16,918 nt of DNA. Origin: Terramyces sp. JEL0728 (lineage: Eukaryota > Chytridiomycota > Chytridiomycetes > Rhizophydiales > Terramycetaceae). The notes under the pieces are model-generated. The model was not told the DNA's origin. It saw only the letters and a list, made by a program, of their open reading frames with translations, and ran no database searches. A program made the position numbers and the translations under genes. The DNA is taken from NCBI GenBank assembly GCA_027603945.1, contig JADIIU010000197.1, forward strand, positions 1 to 16,918, given 5' to 3'. This document shows positions 1 to 15,361 of this stretch, piece after piece. Numbering within the stretch: the stretch's first letter is position 1; every line of letters begins with the position of its first letter.

Positions 1-904
1 ACGATAACAATAGTTTGGCGCCGACCATACTGTTACTAGGTTGTCATCGGGAAACATGAATTTGTAGCCCTCTTGGACTAGTTGATGCGCTCTTGCAATC
101 AAAGTTAGATTATTAACTTGGCAAAACTAGGTTAGACAGTATCTACTTCAAGTGTTACTTTGCGTCCAAACAGCCATCCGGCTCCTCTGGGACTTACTGC
201 CCAAGTGTCGATATCTTCTGGGTCAGACCACATTAAATCTCGATTAGTAATATAAATACCACAGAATGCTCCTTCATGCGGAATTTCCTGGCATCTTTGA
301 ATGGTTCGAATTTGGTCCAGCGTGCGGATATCTGGGGATAGTCCACCATGTACGCAAAGCACACGACCATCAACAATCTAATTTAACGAATATTTACAGC
401 TGCAAGAGTGATAAAGTCAAATACATTACAACATGCTTTCCATACATTCGCATTCCCATATTTAGTCTGGCATTCATCTTTAATTAATAGCAAAGTACCA
501 TAAAATCCATATATTTGTGTAATTTGTCTGCTCTCATGATTCCCTCTTAACAAAGTAAGCTTGTCCGGGTATCTGGCTTTGAGAGCAAGTAATAATGTAA
601 ATGTTTCCAAGCTGTAATATCCTCTGTCCACAAAATCACCCTTTCGTTAATTTCAAGTACCATGAATATGTAGGAGGTGTTTGGAATCTCTCCCCCCACT
701 CTAAATAACTCTAGCAAGTCATAAAATTGTCCGTGGATATCTCCGCAAATTGTAACAGGAGAACAGACTGGCTGAACGTTTGATTCTTCCACTAGCAGCT
801 CCTTCACCTGAGATTAACAAAACTAACCATCTCACACAGTTTCTTCATGGCTGTTTCCGGCAAGTACTGTCCCTTCTTTACTATCTCCAACCATTCATCC
901 GGTC
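1..904. repeat. Terminal inverted repeat, left arm (PP6 exons 2-8)
   Basis: Reverse complement of 16015-16918 with no indels: position x pairs with 16919-x. Bases 1-152 are identical. Mismatches I found up to base 807 are at 153, 255, 494, 503, 506, 509, 514, 524, 530, 533, 536, 645 and 712. Intron 2 (808-827) has two and exon 2 (828-904) about a dozen. Similarity ends upstream of exon 2: first introns and promoters are unrelated. The repeat therefore follows the coding region and not a mobile element. Confidence 0.95.
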
Positions 905-3977: not shown

Positions 3978-6900
3978 ATGAACACAGTCAATTTAAAGAT
4001 TGGAGATTACGTAGAAGCGCCCAGTTCGGAGGTACTGATTCGCTGACCTAGCAACCGATAGTATACAGAGGAAAGTTAAAATACCTTGGACCAGTCCACT
4101 TTTCAAGAGGGATATGGGCAGGTTAGTGCATTAATTGACTCCAGGGATTGATTTGATTGAGAAAGGAGTTGGGAAGAATAACGGCACTGTAAAGGGTGTG
4201 TACTACTTTAGCAGTCTGGAGAACAGCGGTAAATTACCAGTAATGTAGGGATATTTGTGCCAGTCGCTCGGGTGAAGCAACTTGAGGGCTCTCCAGAACA
4301 ATTCAAAAGAAATGCACGCCATCTATCAGAGAGTTTTATACCAACAGCGCCGTCTGACTCTGTAAAGCTACACCAAAGAGGTCTTTCGGTTGCTTCTCCC
4401 GTTCACACCAAGTACGGCAGAATAAGACGAAAATCAAGCGAAACCCTTTCTTCCAAATCCTCGTCACAAAAAGACTTTTATGAATCAAGGATACCAAAAA
4501 AGCTCGTGCACAAAAGGAATTCATCCCCTACTCCAAACAGGCTACTGCCTAGCAGAGTGCTTACTCCTGAAAGTATGTTCTCGTCAAATATAGATTGCGT
4601 TGCCAAGGAGGAAGCTACTTGCAATGTTGGTATGCCTGAAATCAAAACGAAAGCGCTGCCAAGTCCGACAATCTCATCGTTATCCCTGGAAATGCCAGTA
4701 CCCAAAAAATTGGTATTGCCGGACGCATTTACAAATCTAGAAACCGTTATACCCCGTAACAATACCACAAAGATGCTTTCTGTTTTCAACGATGTAAAGT
4801 CGGTGGAAACCAGAGAATTTCAGCATAAACTAGAACTTGCAAAGAAAGAGGTTGCTTCGCTAAAAGCTTTAAATGACGATTTAAAGTATGCCCAGAATAA
4901 TGAAATTTCGAAAATCAAGATGAACCATTCGTCCGAGATTATGATTTTTCAGCGTGAAATTCAAAACTTGCATACTACAATAGAAAGTCATGCTGCTACT
5001 GACCGCAATTACATCATGAAAGAAAAAGCGCTGTTGAAGCAAATCGAATCTCTAGAGCAGCTACATCAAAAAGACATTGAATCTCATGAAACAAGTTTAA
5101 CTCGGCTGAAGGAGACTTATCTGGGAGAGATTGGAGAATTCAAAAATAATTTTGAAAATCAAATGGCCAGGGATAAGACTAACTTTGGAGCTGAAAAGAA
5201 ACGGCTTGAAGAATCATGGGCCGAGATGGAAGAACACTACAGAAAAACGGTAATGTCCTTGACAGAGCAAATCGAACACGCTTCAACTACTATCAACAGC
5301 CAGAATTCGCAGTTGACTGATTACATTTTGGAGCACAACAAAGAATTAGAGCATTTCAAAGAATGCTTGAAAGAAAATAACACAGGATCCTTGGATCTAT
5401 CAAGAAACAGCTGTGTTTCATTCTTTGGTGAATTTATCACGGCAAACAACCACCAATTGGAACAGCTCGAGAAATTGATTTTTGAAAAAGAGCATTCACT
5501 CGAGTTGTTGTTAATCCAGCTGGATAGCCTTCAGGAGCAGATGCACTCTGCCGAACAGCTCAACCAAGACCTCAAGACAAGTCTAAAGAAATCCCAAGAT
5601 GCACAAAATCATGCGTATGAAGAACACGAAATTACGTCGATTCAAAACTCTGAGCTACAGCGCAACTTGAAAGAAAAAATCAATGAAGTAGATCATTTTG
5701 CCACCCGCTATGAATATCTAGAAAAAGAAAATGCCAACCTGATTTCAAATCTCAATAATATTTATCAAGAAAAAGAAAAGCAGATCCAAACCTTGGAAAG
5801 TATCATAGATGCAAAGCAACAGGAAGCAAATTCGTTATTGAACAAGCTGTCTGACGTTTCTCAAGATCTTGAAGTATCGCACAGCACAGTTGCACAACTC
5901 CGCCGGCAAATTCAAGAGTCGTTTGAAAAACAGGCTAAATTGTTTGAAGAGAATGAACAGATATCCACTACCAGCATCCAGCTACATGAACAAGCGGGTC
6001 AAAAAGATGTGTTGATCAAAGAATTATTAGATAAGCATTTGCAAGTATCCGACCTCCACTCTGTCGCCAAGTTAAATTTGGAAAATACATTGGCTGAATA
6101 TACAACTTTCCAATCAGATGTCTCGCTGCAATTGGAAAGGAAAGATAAAGAAAATACCGTTCTGGCTGACCAAATCTCAGAGCTGAATGATCAGTTGCAG
6201 AGACTGCAGCTGAGAGATTCTCACCACCAAAGAGAAATTCAAGAGTATCAGCAATGTCTTGATACTGCCAGCCACAACTTGGATTTGGCAAAGAAGGAAT
6301 GTACTCGTTTGAAAACTGCATTAAACGAAAAGGAATCCCATTTAATTAGGATTACTGGCGAACTGACTGTTTTGAACTCTGAAAAAGAATCTGTGTCTGT
6401 AAAAATACTAAAGTATGAAGATCAGATAAAGAAGATCCAGGAAGAACAATCAGTATCTCGCAAAAAGTTTGATAACATGAATAGCGCAAACTCTCAGCTG
6501 TCCAAAGCCAAAGAAGAGTTGGAAAGGACGCTGACGCAAAAGGATGCAATGATTACATCTCTCACCAGTGTATTGGAAGAAACAAACAACCAATTGTCTC
6601 TAATTAAAAAGACAAGAAGGCAATCTTTCCAACTGATGGAAGCTGAAAACCATGTCCTATCCGAAAAGATGGCAGTGTTGAAATCCGAGAATGAAGATTT
6701 GCTTCATCGATTGGACGAAGCCGTAGACGAAAAAGCAAACACTAGGTATGCACTTCAGAATGAACTTTTGAGTTGTCAGCACAAGCTGGAAAGTTCAGAG
6801 ACTGCTCGCCAAACACTCAGTGAGCAATTAGGATCCAGCTTGCAACAAATTGAAGCTTTAGAGCAAAGTAAAGGTTCTGAAATCAAGAGTAAGCAGCAAG

Positions 6901-8246
6901 AAATGGAATTGGTTACCGAAGAATTGGAAAAATACAAACAGAATACAAGCAAGATGGTAGAATCAATGAACGAATTAAAAATCCAACAAAAATTGCACAA
7001 AGATCAATCCAAAACTATTTCATCGCTCCAGGAAGATCTCATAATATACAAGAACGCATATGAAGGGCATTTGAATGAAAAAACCGCTTTAGAAGAAGAA
7101 TTGAAAAATCTTAAAATGGAAAAGAGCGATTTGACTGGAAAAATATCAGAATTGGAAGCAAAAATTACCATGTTTGATAACCCTGGAAACATTTCGCCTG
7201 GTGTCAACCGAAAACCACAAACTATAACTCCTCCTGCGTCTGAAATCGGAACATTTACAGTCAACTATGTCGACAAGAATTCAGTGCCTCCCCCATCAGA
7301 AATCAGCTCTTTTGCTGTCCATACAGTAGACAGAGCCCCTCCTCCATCCGAAATTAGCTCATATGCAGTTCATACCGTAGAAAAGCGAAATGCCACCTCT
7401 TTGTCGGAAGTAGGTTCTTCGCACGTTTCCAATGGCCTGCCTGTTCGAAGAGGGTGGGATATTCCACATAGCACTGATTCAAAATTACCCCCATTGGTAC
7501 TTTTCAGACAAGGATCGCTTGATGCGGCAGAATCTGATTTGGGGTCCTATGGATCTTGGTACTCTGAAGGGGATCCCAGATCTAATATTCTTAACGAAAT
7601 TGTAATGTCAGAAAGACAGTTTTTGAATGACTTGCAATTGCTGGTCTCTATATTTGTTATACCATCAAAGGATTATATCAGGCCAAAAGATCATCAATTA
7701 TTGTTTGGCAATGTCTATCCTGTCCGGTCCATGTCAGAAAAACTACTATCTCAAATGGAATATTCTCTCGCAAACACTGAAAATATTGGAAACGTTTTTG
7801 TAGAAAATGTAAGTAATTGCTAACCGTAGATCCCATTAATTGAAACTGCATTTTCATCATATTGCCAAAACTTTTCTTCTGCCCTGGATGTTGCCGAGTC
7901 GCTAACCTCATCGAACTCTTCAAAAATAGCAAATTTCATCAAGCAAAGCAACAAGAAACTGCATGGTAAAACCACATCATGGGACTTGAATAGTCTATTG
8001 ATCAAGCCAGTTCAAAGGATCCTCAAATATCCGCTCCTCTTAAAAAGGCTCCTCGAAGAAACTCAAGCATCTCATCCTGATTACAAAAATATCCAGAAAT
8101 CCCTCGCATTAATGGGCCAAGTCGCTGACTCTATCAACAAGGCGACAGATATCCAGCCCGAACTCAAAAATAGAGGTTCTTTTACGATAATGCGCAGCTT
8201 GGGAAGACAGTTTAAAAAGAACGGGAGAAGACCGTCGAATATCTAG
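3978..8246 (+). CDS. CAP-Gly / SxIP / coiled-coil / DH (Rho GEF) fusion protein
   Basis: Four introns (4032-4051, 4122-4144, 4229-4248, 7809-7829; 20, 23, 20, 21 nt) give 1394 residues. Residues 8-79 form a CAP-Gly domain with GIWAG (38-42) and GKNNG (51-55, matching the GKNDG groove that binds EEY/F tails of tubulin and EB proteins). A basic Ser/Pro-rich region follows with three [ST]xIP motifs: SFIP 98, SRIP 149 (next to KK) and TVIP 235. About 255-1045 is charged heptad coiled coil, as in CLIP-170. Residues 1064-1130 hold short SEISS-type repeats. A DH domain spans about 1182-1361, with ILNEIVMSERQFLNDL (CR1) and LLIKPVQRILKYPLLLKRLL (CR3). No PH domain follows, only a 33-residue basic tail. 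Inferred role: a microtubule plus-end protein that activates a Rho GTPase. The long exon is one uninterrupted frame from CAP-Gly to DH. Confidence 0.92.
7230..7430 (+). repeat. Degenerate SEISS repeats in the linker before the DH domain
   Basis: Residues about 1064-1130 of the fusion protein contain four units with cores SEIGTF, SEISSF, SEISSY and SEVGSS, spaced 19, 17 and 19 residues apart. The middle two share PPPSEISS and AVHTV. The section is rich in Ser and Pro and looks like a flexible, possibly phosphorylated hinge between coiled coil and DH. A binding partner is not evident. Confidence 0.7.
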
Positions 8247-10019: not shown

Positions 10020-12683
10020 ACAAATTGCCATCCGTCCAACCTTCTGTGAATTCGTCCGTTGAGATGCTACTTACTTCGTCCATCATTGATTCTTCTTCAA
10101 GTGTGATATCTTGTCCAATCCACTCATCATTGTTTACTGCAGATGCACTATTTTGAGATTGGTTAAAGTCAAACGGGATGGATTCAAACAATTGCCAGTT
10201 GGGGTCATCTTCAAACTCTTCCACTTGAACCGTTTTGTATACTTCAATATCCAACCTAATGTTAACAAATAGTACCATTCTTGGTAATTGTTTCTAAAAT
10301 TATCGTCCAGATCAGGCTGCTGCTTCTTGAAATCAAGGAGGTTCGCATGATTTGGATTCTTGGGATCAAATGTCTCTGAGAGGGACATGTTCAGGGCAAT
10401 GTCTAAACCGTCAGGCTCGTGATCATTCTTGGGTATATCAAGCCTGGGGTCTGTTAGCTGTTTGAGTCTGTCATTGAAGCTGGTAACTAAATCCCGTAAT
10501 TCTGAATCCTGTTTCTACGATTAGCAACAAGTACTATTGCTTCGTCAGCATCGGCCTCCATTTCACCAGACAAATACTCCTCTTTGAGCTTATGTGACAA
10601 GCGCTGGTATATAAGCGAAATGATGTGCATGTTATTCGTCCTCCACTTCTTTCCTAGCAGCGGCACCTGGCTTTTAAGCAGCTTTAGGACATACAACTCC
10701 AAATATGGATTGCTCACTTTAATCATTCGCTTTAATACTGCAGATGCTTTCCATTGTACCAAAGCCAATATTCTATGCATTTTGTTTTTGGTCAGTTTCT
10801 GTAAAACACAAAGTAGATTGATTGTGGTGTGGAAATTCCGTTCGCTTGCTTTAATTGGATCCTGGAGCTTCAAGGTTTCTGTGGAACCCCTGGCTTCATC
10901 TACAATACTTGCAGGTACTTGTTGCTTTCCGTGTGATTTACAAAATTCGAAAAACGACAAATCAGGGAGTAAAGGTCGATCTTTTAGCCATCCTGCCCCC
11001 ATTAGTGAATCAGAACCGCCTTCGCCATCATCGGGCACGCTCTTTTTTCGTCCAGCCTGGTTGCTTGCAAACCAAGAGCTGAGCATTTTCAGAATAAGGA
11101 TCGGGCCGTTATTGTCCACCAGTATTTGACAAATATTTTCGAATGCAAGAATGTGATATTTCTTTGCCGATTTTAGCAACATGATGAAAATGCTGGAGAT
11201 AACAAACGTTACAATTTCCTTGTGTCTGAAATTGTCAATCCTGTCCAATTCTATGATTTTTTCTTCAGAAGCGAGATGTGCCAGTCGGTCAACTGTACTT
11301 TGGTCTATTGGCGAGAAATCCAGCGTTGAGGCGACATTCAAATAAAACAGTAACCGGACGAGCATTGTAATATTTTGAGGCAGGTCTAGAAACAAGGATT
11401 CCTATTTTAGAGACTGATTACGTATAGATCTTTTGCCCTTGTCAGCCTTGGATATTTCCTTGGGTCAATTGGTGCTGTGTCGATTGGCACTTCTAGGGAA
11501 GAGTGGTATTGGTCCTTCATGCGTCTTTCTCGTGCTGTTTGAACCAGTCCAGGAGAAGTATACAGATATTTTTTGTGTAGTTCGACGCTTTCCTTGATAA
11601 ACGGAGGAACATCAGCATCTGTTTCCAAAATTGGGTGGATGACTACTCCATTTCTAGCTGCTTCAAACTGGGCTGAAATATTATTCTCCATAGCTGGCTC
11701 TGCAAGTTGATAGATATTGGCCAAGCTTTTCTGAAGAGCAATAGGCACGTTATCCAGCATCCCGGGCTGATAATTTGGTATATCTAACGCAGGGTCGGGA
11801 ATATAGTACGTAGGATATCGGTTTTCTAATATCAGATAGTGGTTGAAATAATCTTGTGGGGCTGCTTTGATAGGAAACTCTTTTCGAGGCAAGTTTTCAA
11901 CAGCCCAGGATTCATTCTTTTGTAGTTCCTGTTCCATAACATTACCGGTAATTACTTGGATCACCTTCCAAAGAACCAAAAGTAGCTTTTTAACCGGAAA
12001 CCTCTGACGATTCACTTCTGCTAATTTAACAAGTGTATGAAACAGGAATTTTGGGATATATGGGGATTCATTTGCTAGGTCAAGATATATTTACCAACTG
12101 CAACTACGAATTTCTGATCATCCTTGTTTGCCACGATCATCATATACATTAAGCTGAGATAAATAGTAGTTTCCAGTACGATCGCATCAATGATTACTTG
12201 GGTTTCCGGCGATATTTTTGGCTGTTGCTCCAGCAGTTCAAAATGGTGAACCATAATTTTAAGAGACTGTGATTAGTCAAAATCTACTTTGTAAGCATTA
12301 TGGAATGCATTCAACTTGAATAATTTGCGATTGTTTACAATAATAGCTCCCAGCTGATCCTTTTGAAATAGTCCTTGAGAGTAATGTAGTAGCTTGGATG
12401 CAGATATTATCCTGATTGATGATACACTGAGCGTCAAATTGGACACCAGTTCTTCCAGATTAACTGGACTAGCTTCGTACAATTCTTTTGCTTTCAGCAA
12501 CATTTGGAAATCATGATGGTTATAAAAATCACTGATATCCAGGTAATCATTTTCCTCTCTGTATACAAAATCCCATTGTCCATTCGGTAACTCTTCCTTT
12601 AGGCTTGAAGGATGTTTAAACCCTAAATTAGGGACCAATTTTGGCGGTGGTAGCAGTAATGGTTTAGATTGGGGAGTCTGCAT
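10018..12683 (-). CDS. STRIP/Far11 family subunit of the STRIPAK complex
   Basis: Homologue of human STRIP1/2 (FAM40) and yeast Far11, scaffold of STRIPAK, which joins PP2A to striatin and GCK-type kinases. Five introns (12267-12287, 12075-12094, 11402-11421, 10515-10534, 10256-10275; 21, 20, 20, 20, 20 nt) are removed to give 854 residues. The N-terminal N1221 region shows WDFVYREENDYLDISDFYNH and RFPVKKLLLVLWKV (human: FPMKKVLLLLWK). The C-terminal DUF3402 region shows ESLFLDLPQNITMLVRLL, NPYLELYVLKLLKSQV, LGKKWRTNNMHIISLIYQRL and NYQEWLDIEVY, the last matching human NYDLWLEREVF. The fourth intron is taken as 10515-10534 because it has a CTAAT branch site and restores ELRDLVTSFNDR. After the conserved end there is an acidic tail of about 65 residues ending EGWTDGNL. 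It starts 28 bp from the RidA stop. Confidence 0.93.
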
Positions 12684-13154: not shown

Positions 13155-14210
13155 AAACCATTTCGGCTGGATTTTTTGGTTCCGCCTGTTCCTCTACAGG
13201 ATATCTAGGAGAGTCGGCAATAGTATCTGCTTCAAATGCTCCAGAAGTAAGCGGAGTAGTTTCTTTTTCGTTGATTGTTGTAACTGAGGAATAGGTGTTC
13301 AGTTTTGGTTCTTCCAGAGTTACTTTCTTTTCTGCCTTGTAAACAGTAAAGTAGTTGAGGAGTCCCATAGCTACAGAAGCTGTGACTAGGAGCATACATG
13401 GGAAGAAAGCAAGAATATCCGCGTTACAACCAACTGCTGGAGCACCAGGTTGAGCGTTACGGATATTTGGCAACGCGAATAGGATAGCACCGACAGCAGC
13501 AATAGTTGGCGGTTCAACTTTTCTGCCTCTGGTCCAGATGGAAAGAGTAACCAAGAAAGCAGCACCAGAAAGGACCCACATGATCAAATACAAAAAGATG
13601 CTGAACAAGATTGTGATTACGGTTCTCTTTAAAGTAATGGTAAAGAGCCTTTCATTTGGTGGACCATTGAATTGTCCATTGACTTGGTAAGATTCAATAT
13701 CGCTTCTCCACAAATCAATTTCACCAGAAAAATCATAACTGAATGGAATTGGCTGTTGGGAAGCGAAATCCTTGATCATGATCGAAACTTCAGTGTAATA
13801 TGAATCGAACGGATAAGCAACAGTGTCAGCCTGAGTTATTGGAATGGCACTAGTGACTTGCTGTAAAAAGTCCTTGGCATCCTATTATTATCTCGATATT
13901 ACCTTGTAATCTGTGGATTTTCCATTAATAACAATCGAGTAATTGACGGCTGCTTGAACAGAAGTAGCGAGCTAGGATTAGGGCTGATTACGTTCAATGT
14001 CAAAGTAGTAGGACTGAATGAAATGACTTGGTTGGTGACATTTACGCTGGAAGCAGCAGAATCCAATTCACCAATGCCTGCAGTTTGACGGTGGTTGAAG
14101 CTTTGATTGTTGATGACTGTGCATACAATGATCAGGGCCAAGTAAGTTACTACGCCGAATACGAATATCAATCGCTGTCTAATTCTTCTCCCAAATAGAA
14201 TGAAGGTCAT
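13153..14210 (-). CDS. DUF4436 membrane protein, paralogue A
   Basis: Two introns (13972-13991, 20 nt; 13882-13902, 21 nt), both phase 0, are removed to give 338 residues. Topology from hydrophobicity: one N-terminal membrane segment (residues about 14-33, ending IIVCTVI), an extracytosolic beta-rich domain of about 150 residues with several N-glycosylation sequons (for example NVT), then three membrane segments (FSIFLYLIMWVLSGAAFLV; PTIAAVGAILFALP; FFPCMLLVTASVAMGLLNYF) and a hydrophilic tail. RNAQPGAP followed by FF is the pattern I associate with DUF4436, a family without known function. The start at 14210 is chosen because it aligns with paralogue B; an in-frame upstream GTG is not used. 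It sits 204 bp downstream of paralogue B on the same strand. The tail is about 40 residues longer than in B. Confidence 0.88.
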
Positions 14211-14401
14211 CAAATTGTTGAAAAAAATCAGTGGCACCAATCAGGACAGTTCTCGACAGTAAATAATATTCAGGCTATATGGAGATTGAGTGTATCTATT
14301 TTGCAATTCGGGATATTGCGTGGATAATCGAGAATCGCTATTCTTGCTGACTGCCTCCAAACTTGCGGAATTACGAGTAATTCGGAAAAGCGATAACCAA
14401 A

Positions 14402-14407
14402 TTTATT
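14402..14407 (-). terminator. AATAAA after the second DUF4436 stop
   Basis: On the minus strand AATAAA begins 7 nt after the TGA at 14415-14417, within the 204-bp gap to paralogue A. Confidence 0.5.
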
Positions 14408-14414
14408 TCAATTT

Positions 14415-15361
14415 TCAAGCGCTTTGCTCGACAGATTTTCTTTTCTTCAATGAAGCATCTCTGTCCGATTGCAGGAGGGCAGTGTATGACTGTTTTGCTT
14501 TTTCAGCCTTGTAAACAACTAGATAGTTCATCAACCCCATAAACACAGATGCTGTGACCAACAGCATACATGGGAAAAACGCGACAATATCGGAATTGCA
14601 TCCAATTGGAGGAGCACCAGGTTGCGCATTACGGATAGCGGGTAACGCGAATAGGATAGCACCGACAGCAGCAATAGTTGGCGGTTCTACTTTTCTGCCT
14701 CTGGTCCAGATAGAAGATGTCACCATGAACGCAGCGCCAGATAGCACCCACATGATCAAATACAAGAATAAACTGAACAAGATTGTGATTGTAGTTCTTT
14801 TTAAAGATACGATGAATACCCTTTCATTTTCCACTTGAGTCTCTTGCGGTTCAATGTCGCTTCTCCACAAATCGATAGTGCCCAAGAAATCGTAAGTAAA
14901 TGGGATAGCCTGTTGGGTTTTAAAATCTTTGATCATAAAGGATACCAGAGTGCTGTACTTGTCAAATGGATAATTGACAGTACGGGCTTCAATCATAGGA
15001 ACTGTGCTATTGATTTGTTGCAAGTAGTCTTTTGCATCCTACTTGTCAATTCCACTTACTTTAAAATCCGTTGCTTTTCCATTTACAACTACGGTATAGT
15101 TGTTGGTAGATTTGACGCTGGTAACAACCTATAGTTACAAACAGTTACCACCAAATTCAAATTATTGGAATTGAAAGAAATGATTTGGTTGGTGACATTG
15201 ATGCTGTTGGAGTTTACTTCACCGACCCCAGATTGTTGACGGATGCTGAATGATTGATTATTGATCACAGTGCATACAATAATCAATGCGAAATAGACTA
15301 ATGTGCCCAACGCGAACAAAATCCTTTGGCTTACTCCTCTACCTGCAATTTTGAATGCCAT
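14415..15361 (-). CDS. DUF4436 membrane protein, paralogue B
   Basis: Two introns (15129-15148, 20 nt; 15039-15059, 21 nt), both phase 0, are removed to give 301 residues. The architecture equals paralogue A: N-terminal membrane segment with YFALIIVCTVINNQSF, extracytosolic domain with NVT sequons, then three membrane segments, RNAQPGAPPIG and FFPCMLLVTASVFMGL, and a short basic tail. Exon 2 is 69 nt in both paralogues, and both introns match in length and position though not in sequence, so the pair arose by tandem duplication after the introns existed. A 68-bp piece is almost identical between them (see findings). The function is unknown; a surface or secretory-membrane role is inferred from topology. 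The gene is divergent from PP6 copy R. Confidence 0.9.

Follow-up and report, generated by a model that had tools for sequence, protein, structure and literature searches.

The window analysed here, 16,918 nucleotides (nt) long, is an entire contig of the chytrid Terramyces sp. JEL0728 (Chytridiomycota, order Rhizophydiales, family Terramycetaceae), whose genome assembly comprises 15.0 Mb in 231 contigs. On the forward strand, positions 3978-8246 hold a gene that, in our splice model of five exons and four introns (20, 23, 20 and 21 nt), encodes 1394 amino acids (aa). The spliced translation was letter-for-letter identical to the NCBI protein of Terramyces sp. JEL0728 (P0001), which carries the automatic name 'Rho guanine nucleotide exchange factor 38'. 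We confirmed that this one protein joins a CAP-Gly domain, a long coiled coil and the DH (RhoGEF) domain of guanine nucleotide exchange factors (GEFs).

The CAP-Gly domain lies at positions 4058-4274 (residues 21-78, with introns 2 and 3 inside) and matched Pfam PF01302 far above chance, at 61.4 bits against a cut-off of 26.5 and over profile positions 9-65 of 65. The DH domain at 7587-8138 (residues 1183-1359, with intron 4 inside) matched PF00621, also far above chance, at 132.7 bits (cut-off 27.6) along the full profile, 1-180 of 180. A preliminary description of this DNA had claimed a complete N-terminal CAP-Gly with GIWAG and GKNNG motifs and a complete C-terminal DH, and both are borne out by these matches. 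Its coiled coil of about 800 residues is also present, but the core is slightly shorter, at 730 residues (about 281-1010, positions 4881-7070). Residues 246-1045 contain no proline and 11 glycines, and the 3.5-residue periodicity of nine of the ten 100-residue windows in this region (starts 281 to 911) was matched by 0-4.4% of shuffles; in window 631-730 the periodicity was not above chance, 27% of shuffles reaching it. Upstream of the coil, a linker rich in Ser, Pro and basic residues (4332-4754) carries three conserved SxIP-like motifs, which are weak candidates for EB1 contacts. Downstream, a second linker at 7227-7418 (residues about 1063-1126) is built of repeated (P)PPSEISSFAVHTVD units that are kept in all three orthologues described below. 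Only 35 residues remain after the DH, including a basic C-terminal tail (8148-8243, residues 1363-1394; 8 K/R and 2 D/E). No further Pfam family was matched at E ≤ 0.01 in the 1394-aa protein, which leaves PH, BAR and zinc knuckle unmatched. A PH domain after the DH is typical of the Dbl family, though not universal in it, and none was recognised here; we did not file the protein as DH-BAR because the Pfam scan gave no BAR domain.

Exon 1 (3978-4031) supplies the start codon and residues 1-18, in agreement with the NCBI protein, and excision of intron 1 (4032-4051, 20 nt, GT...CTGAC..TAG) yields that protein exactly. An intron 1 of 30 nt was rejected, as it breaks the frame that the 20-nt intron preserves. 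Exon 2 (4052-4121, residues 19-42) encodes the portion of the CAP-Gly with GIWAG and, after intron 2 (4122-4144, 23 nt), exon 3 (4145-4228, residues 42-70) encodes GKNNG, a motif of the GKNDG type expected in CAP-Gly domains. Intron 3 (4229-4248, 20 nt) is followed by the long exon 4 (4249-7808), which runs uninterrupted for 3560 nt, as the preliminary description had stated, and covers residues 70-1256: the end of the CAP-Gly, the linker, the coiled coil and the start of the DH. Intron 4 (7809-7829), inside the DH, has 21 nt, a multiple of three, and contains an in-frame stop; exon 5 (7830-8246) encodes the remaining DH and the basic tail (residues 1257-1394) and ends with the stop codon.

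Introns of about 20 nt appear to be common in Terramyces, the four described here included. When a strict donor/branch/acceptor pattern was applied to 176 kb of Terramyces sequence, 13 sites of 18-23 nt were found against 0.4 after randomisation, a count in which a duplicated region may have been included twice. Longer introns showed no clear excess with the same pattern in the same sequence (3 sites of 30-32 nt against 1.0 randomised). The genes for EB1 and several RhoGEFs likewise suggest introns of this size. For comparison, a mean intron length of 63 bp was termed relatively short in a survey that covered 644 fungal genomes (PMC8476143).

Two Boothiomyces genomes encode the same protein at 73-75% identity, on contigs of 47,365 and 262,275 nt. 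The Boothiomyces macroporosus orthologue (P0003, 1395 aa) contains both the CAP-Gly and RhoGEF domains, and that of Boothiomyces sp. JEL0866 (P0002, 1375 aa) is laid out as in Terramyces. The annotated P0002 model lacks about 20 residues, including GKNNG, and its CAP-Gly scored 19.6 bits against the cut-off of 26.5; this shortfall may well reflect a gene-model error. The architecture is real and is conserved in the three Terramycetaceae genomes reached by our searches. Between Terramyces and B. macroporosus, identity was highest at the two ends, with 96% for the CAP-Gly, 90% for the DH and 94% for the tail; the first linker (76%), the coil (66%) and the second linker (82%) were less alike. DH identity across genera was 89-90%, and 30 of the 32 tail residues were identical in all three orthologues. 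The two termini are the constrained parts of the protein, as would be expected were both ends functional.

Relatives were sought with three protein searches based on shared five-residue words among proteins of 0.55-1.75 times the query length, one of which covered the best 7,987 candidates by words. The DH region retrieved 101 proteins, two of which (Terramyces and B. macroporosus) contained both Pfam domains, in addition to P0002. The CAP-Gly region retrieved six proteins, namely the three orthologues and three proteins without a RhoGEF domain, and a profile of the three orthologues retrieved 18: the orthologues, 13 CAP-Gly proteins (ten carrying the name CLIP or restin) and two PLEKHG2-type RhoGEFs. 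Among these matches, no protein with both domains was found outside Terramycetaceae. This absence is provisional because searches limited by words and length could miss a distant or much longer relative. In the Terramyces genome itself, a search gave 16 matches, of which only the gene at 3978-8246 matched at both ends; there was no second CAP-Gly/DH copy among them, and the best other match was the Tuba-like DH on contig C52. Among the titles and abstract openings listed from an open-access literature collection, in the largest case 20 of 37 papers, none described a CAP-Gly and a DH in one protein, and within that range the earlier remark that no such protein had been described held up. The four papers listed for Terramyces with Boothiomyces included no genome paper on them. 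We judge a CAP-Gly joined to a PH-less Tuba-type DH to be a new domain combination within the Dbl-family RhoGEFs.

To place the DH, we built a tree of 44 rows: 16 were Terramyces loci, and the other 28 came from 26 proteins among the 101 DH-region matches. The DH clustered with animal Tuba/DNMBP and fungal DH-BAR proteins with an ultrafast bootstrap (UFBoot) support of 95, and within this clade it fell in the part with fungal and three unnamed rows (UFBoot 94). Glu1186, Glu1191, Lys1315 and Asn1359, in conserved regions CR1 and CR3 and the last helix, were invariant in all ten aligned DH rows; we take this region to be the exchange site of the DH. For the DH, which the preliminary description had placed at residues 1182-1361, the AlphaFold model gave a confident fold, with a mean predicted local distance difference test score (pLDDT) of 84 and 152 of 222 residues at 90 or above. 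Foldseek agreed, its top matches being the P-Rex1-Rac1 and intersectin-Cdc42 structures. The tail had a pLDDT below 50, and its model was not used. Tuba is reported to be a GEF specific for Cdc42 (PMC5359428).

The closest solved structures to the CAP-Gly were those of RIKEN 1700024K14, Bik1, CLIP4, CAP350 and restin/CLIP-170, with dynactin also matched; the first two are presumably the mouse and yeast proteins, respectively. A ligand for such a domain is present in the genome, where alpha-tubulin (C91, L027) has the C-terminus EEEEAEEY and thus an EEY tail, and microtubule binding is likely. The linker at residues 84-245 is basic (26 K/R and 14 D/E). Three SxIP-like motifs in the linker, SFIP (98-101), SRIP (149-152) and TVIP (235-238), are kept in all three orthologues. 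Shuffles of residues 84-245 contained a mean of 0.47 such motifs and gave three or more in 0.83% of cases, a post hoc figure since the motif was chosen after the sequence was seen. The sole EB1 match in the genome (C73:12108-12239, reverse strand, L026) appears to end in TEEGFEAPDLETEL, ...LETEL, when read by eye with an assumed 20-nt intron; the unspliced frame ends earlier.

These features suggest, with a probability that we put at roughly 0.6, a microtubule-associated Dbl-family GEF. Its CAP-Gly, at the N-terminus, would bind microtubules by way of the alpha-tubulin EEY tail, the long coiled coil would form a dimer and a spacer, and the C-terminal Tuba-type DH would act as the exchange domain for a Rho-family GTPase, with Cdc42 the most likely target. 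By placing or restraining the GEF, attachment would let microtubules, as they grow or release it, set the site of Rho-family activity, for example in patterning sporangium cleavage planes or polarity. Taken by itself, the statement that the protein is a real microtubule-regulated GEF is probably correct.

Several points weigh against this reading. The nearest sister of the DH was a Coemansia row with one unnamed row, at a support of just 71, and rival DH families were thinly sampled because the rows were drawn from matches to the same DH. A DH without PH or BAR may be weak or dependent on a partner. On the microtubule side, EB1 seems to have no EEY/F tail, which would close off one of the usual ways in which CAP-Gly proteins reach plus ends. 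The SxIP rule asks for [ST]x[IL]P with a preceding basic residue and no acidic neighbour (PMC4834103), and Glu or Asp directly precedes each of the three linker motifs; a fourth motif, S[KR]LP at 1147, is also directly preceded by an acidic residue. Plus-end tracking based on SxIP is weakened because the motifs fail this flanking rule. The preliminary description had gone further and equated the plus-end tracker with the GEF. What stands of this is that one protein holds both modules with conserved exchange-site residues; the tracking is not supported by the ...LETEL end of EB1 or by the failed SxIP rule, and the genome also has two other CLIP-like genes (C7, C37) and a dynactin-like gene.

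Microtubule attachment could also act with the opposite sign through the same link: the microtubule-bound GEF would be inactive, and Rho signalling would start once the GEF was released, through depolymerisation or through phosphorylation in the Ser-rich linker. GEF-H1 works in this manner, being held inactive on microtubules and switching Rho signalling on when released. The basic composition of the linker and its conservation in B. macroporosus are consistent with such a switch, and in Drosophila RhoGEF2, phosphorylation close to the SxIP motif relieves the inhibition that depends on microtubules (PMC9473612). Because microtubule association inhibits RhoGEF2, delivery and sequestration are both options for the chytrid protein, and the earlier proposal that microtubule ends place Rho activity directly becomes one option, with this precedent on the other side. 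The sign of regulation is not readable from sequence, and we regard sequestration as a tentative possibility. A different site of action, in which the CAP-Gly would anchor the GEF at centriolar microtubules instead of growing ends and couple the centrosome to membrane furrows or cilium formation, is rather doubtful. CAP350 is among the closest solved relatives of the CAP-Gly (2coz, E 3e-10), EB1 seemingly lacks EEY/F, and in one chytrid the centrosomes remain tethered at the front of furrow initials (PMC11974727), but the Bik1 and CLIP4 structures scored slightly above CAP350. To our knowledge, the sequence of the protein also holds no centrosomal motif.

That the DH is degenerate and serves as a scaffold, binding GTPases without nucleotide exchange, is improbable. 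The lack of PH or BAR after the DH would fit a scaffold, but the exchange-site residues are invariant in every aligned row and the domain is highly conserved across genera. Far more improbable still is an artefact in which the splice model joins two neighbouring genes or the contig is chimeric. The window is one whole short contig and the gene has four tiny introns; however, a single exon runs from the end of the CAP-Gly into the DH, and the CAP-Gly and DH are not a mis-joined pair because this exon covers residues 70-1256. Nor is the architecture a mis-joined model, because the protein also occurs, on longer contigs, in two Boothiomyces genomes. We therefore rejected a mis-annotated gene fusion on the grounds of one-exon continuity and the Boothiomyces orthologues.

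The microtubule-associated GEF proposed here shares parts with several known systems. ARHGEF38 is a DH-BAR protein. The chytrid DH belongs to the Tuba/DNMBP/ARHGEF38 clade, as its automatic NCBI name also suggests, whereas the chytrid protein has no BAR or SH3 and has gained a CAP-Gly and a coiled coil. It resembles CLIP-170, Bik1 and Tip1 in having a long coiled coil behind a Bik1/CLIP-type CAP-Gly at the N-terminus, but differs in having one CAP-Gly, no zinc knuckle and a C-terminal DH. GEF-H1 has a PH domain and no CAP-Gly. The likeness lies in its being a microtubule-regulated Rho GEF, according to reference titles in PMC9969133. The complex of CLIP-170 with IQGAP1 and active Rac1/Cdc42 (PMC9969133) likewise links a CAP-Gly protein to Rac1/Cdc42, but there the proteins are separate and IQGAP1 binds activated GTPases. 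Drosophila RhoGEF2 tracks plus ends via its SxIP motif and EB1 (PMC9473612), and so combines microtubule plus-end association and Rho GTPase activation in a single protein, as the chytrid protein, known from sequence, may do. RhoGEF2 has SxIP, PDZ, RGS and PH, with no CAP-Gly mentioned in the passages considered, whereas the chytrid protein has a CAP-Gly and no PH. The view of the preliminary description that known systems divide the two jobs between different proteins was too strong, given that RhoGEF2 is itself a plus-end GEF and that TRIO is listed as an SxIP plus-end tracking protein (PMC4834103).

In the chytrid Spizellomyces, microtubules pattern cleavage without being essential, and actomyosin drives it (PMC11974727), which lends plausibility to a microtubule-linked GEF in chytrids; words beginning with Rho do not occur in the text of that paper. 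A more specific version is unlikely, namely that a Terramycetaceae fusion of a CLIP/Bik1-type CAP-Gly and coil with a Tuba-type DH provides a covalent microtubule-to-Cdc42/Rho link that replaces CLIP-170-IQGAP or EB1-GEF coupling and patterns sporangium actomyosin cleavage or rhizoid polarity. The question of how microtubules direct the actin cortex has been asked for a long time, mostly in systems made of several proteins. A microtubule binder and a GEF in one natural chain would give a compact test case for microtubule-patterned cleavage, and chytrid cell biologists gain a named candidate in fungi with centrioles and foam-like cellularisation.

CAP-Gly matches were found at six further Terramyces loci, named here from sequence: dynactin-p150-like (C166), TBCB-like (C43), TBCE-like (C5), two CLIP-like CAP-Gly/coiled-coil genes with long frames and no DH (C7 and C37), and a CAP-Gly behind an EF-hand-like region (C25:131547-132149, reverse strand, L021), the EF-hand match being below the cut-off. 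This last frame adjoins an elongation factor 1-alpha-like frame and is another unusual CAP-Gly combination. RhoGEF matches were found at 16 loci. The C52 DH is followed downstream by a sub-cut-off BAR match, and the locus looks like an ordinary Tuba-type gene. At C37:105.5-112.5 kb (L017), the CLIP-like CAP-Gly/coiled-coil gene has a RhoGEF gene directly upstream of it, both in the same orientation; we rejected these neighbours as a second fusion or a parent of the fusion, as the frames are separate and the RhoGEF comes first. Two RhoGEF loci at C26:74.7 kb and C26:121.0 kb (L018 and L035), 46 kb apart, have a DH tree distance of practically zero and represent either a recent duplication or an assembly duplicate.

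Elsewhere in the window, frames on the reverse strand at 10490-12090 match DUF3402 and N1221, a pair that we take to be typical of STRIP/Far11 of the STRIPAK complex. At 13156-15038, also on the reverse strand, two similar adjoining membrane-protein frames with DUF4436 form a tandem duplication.

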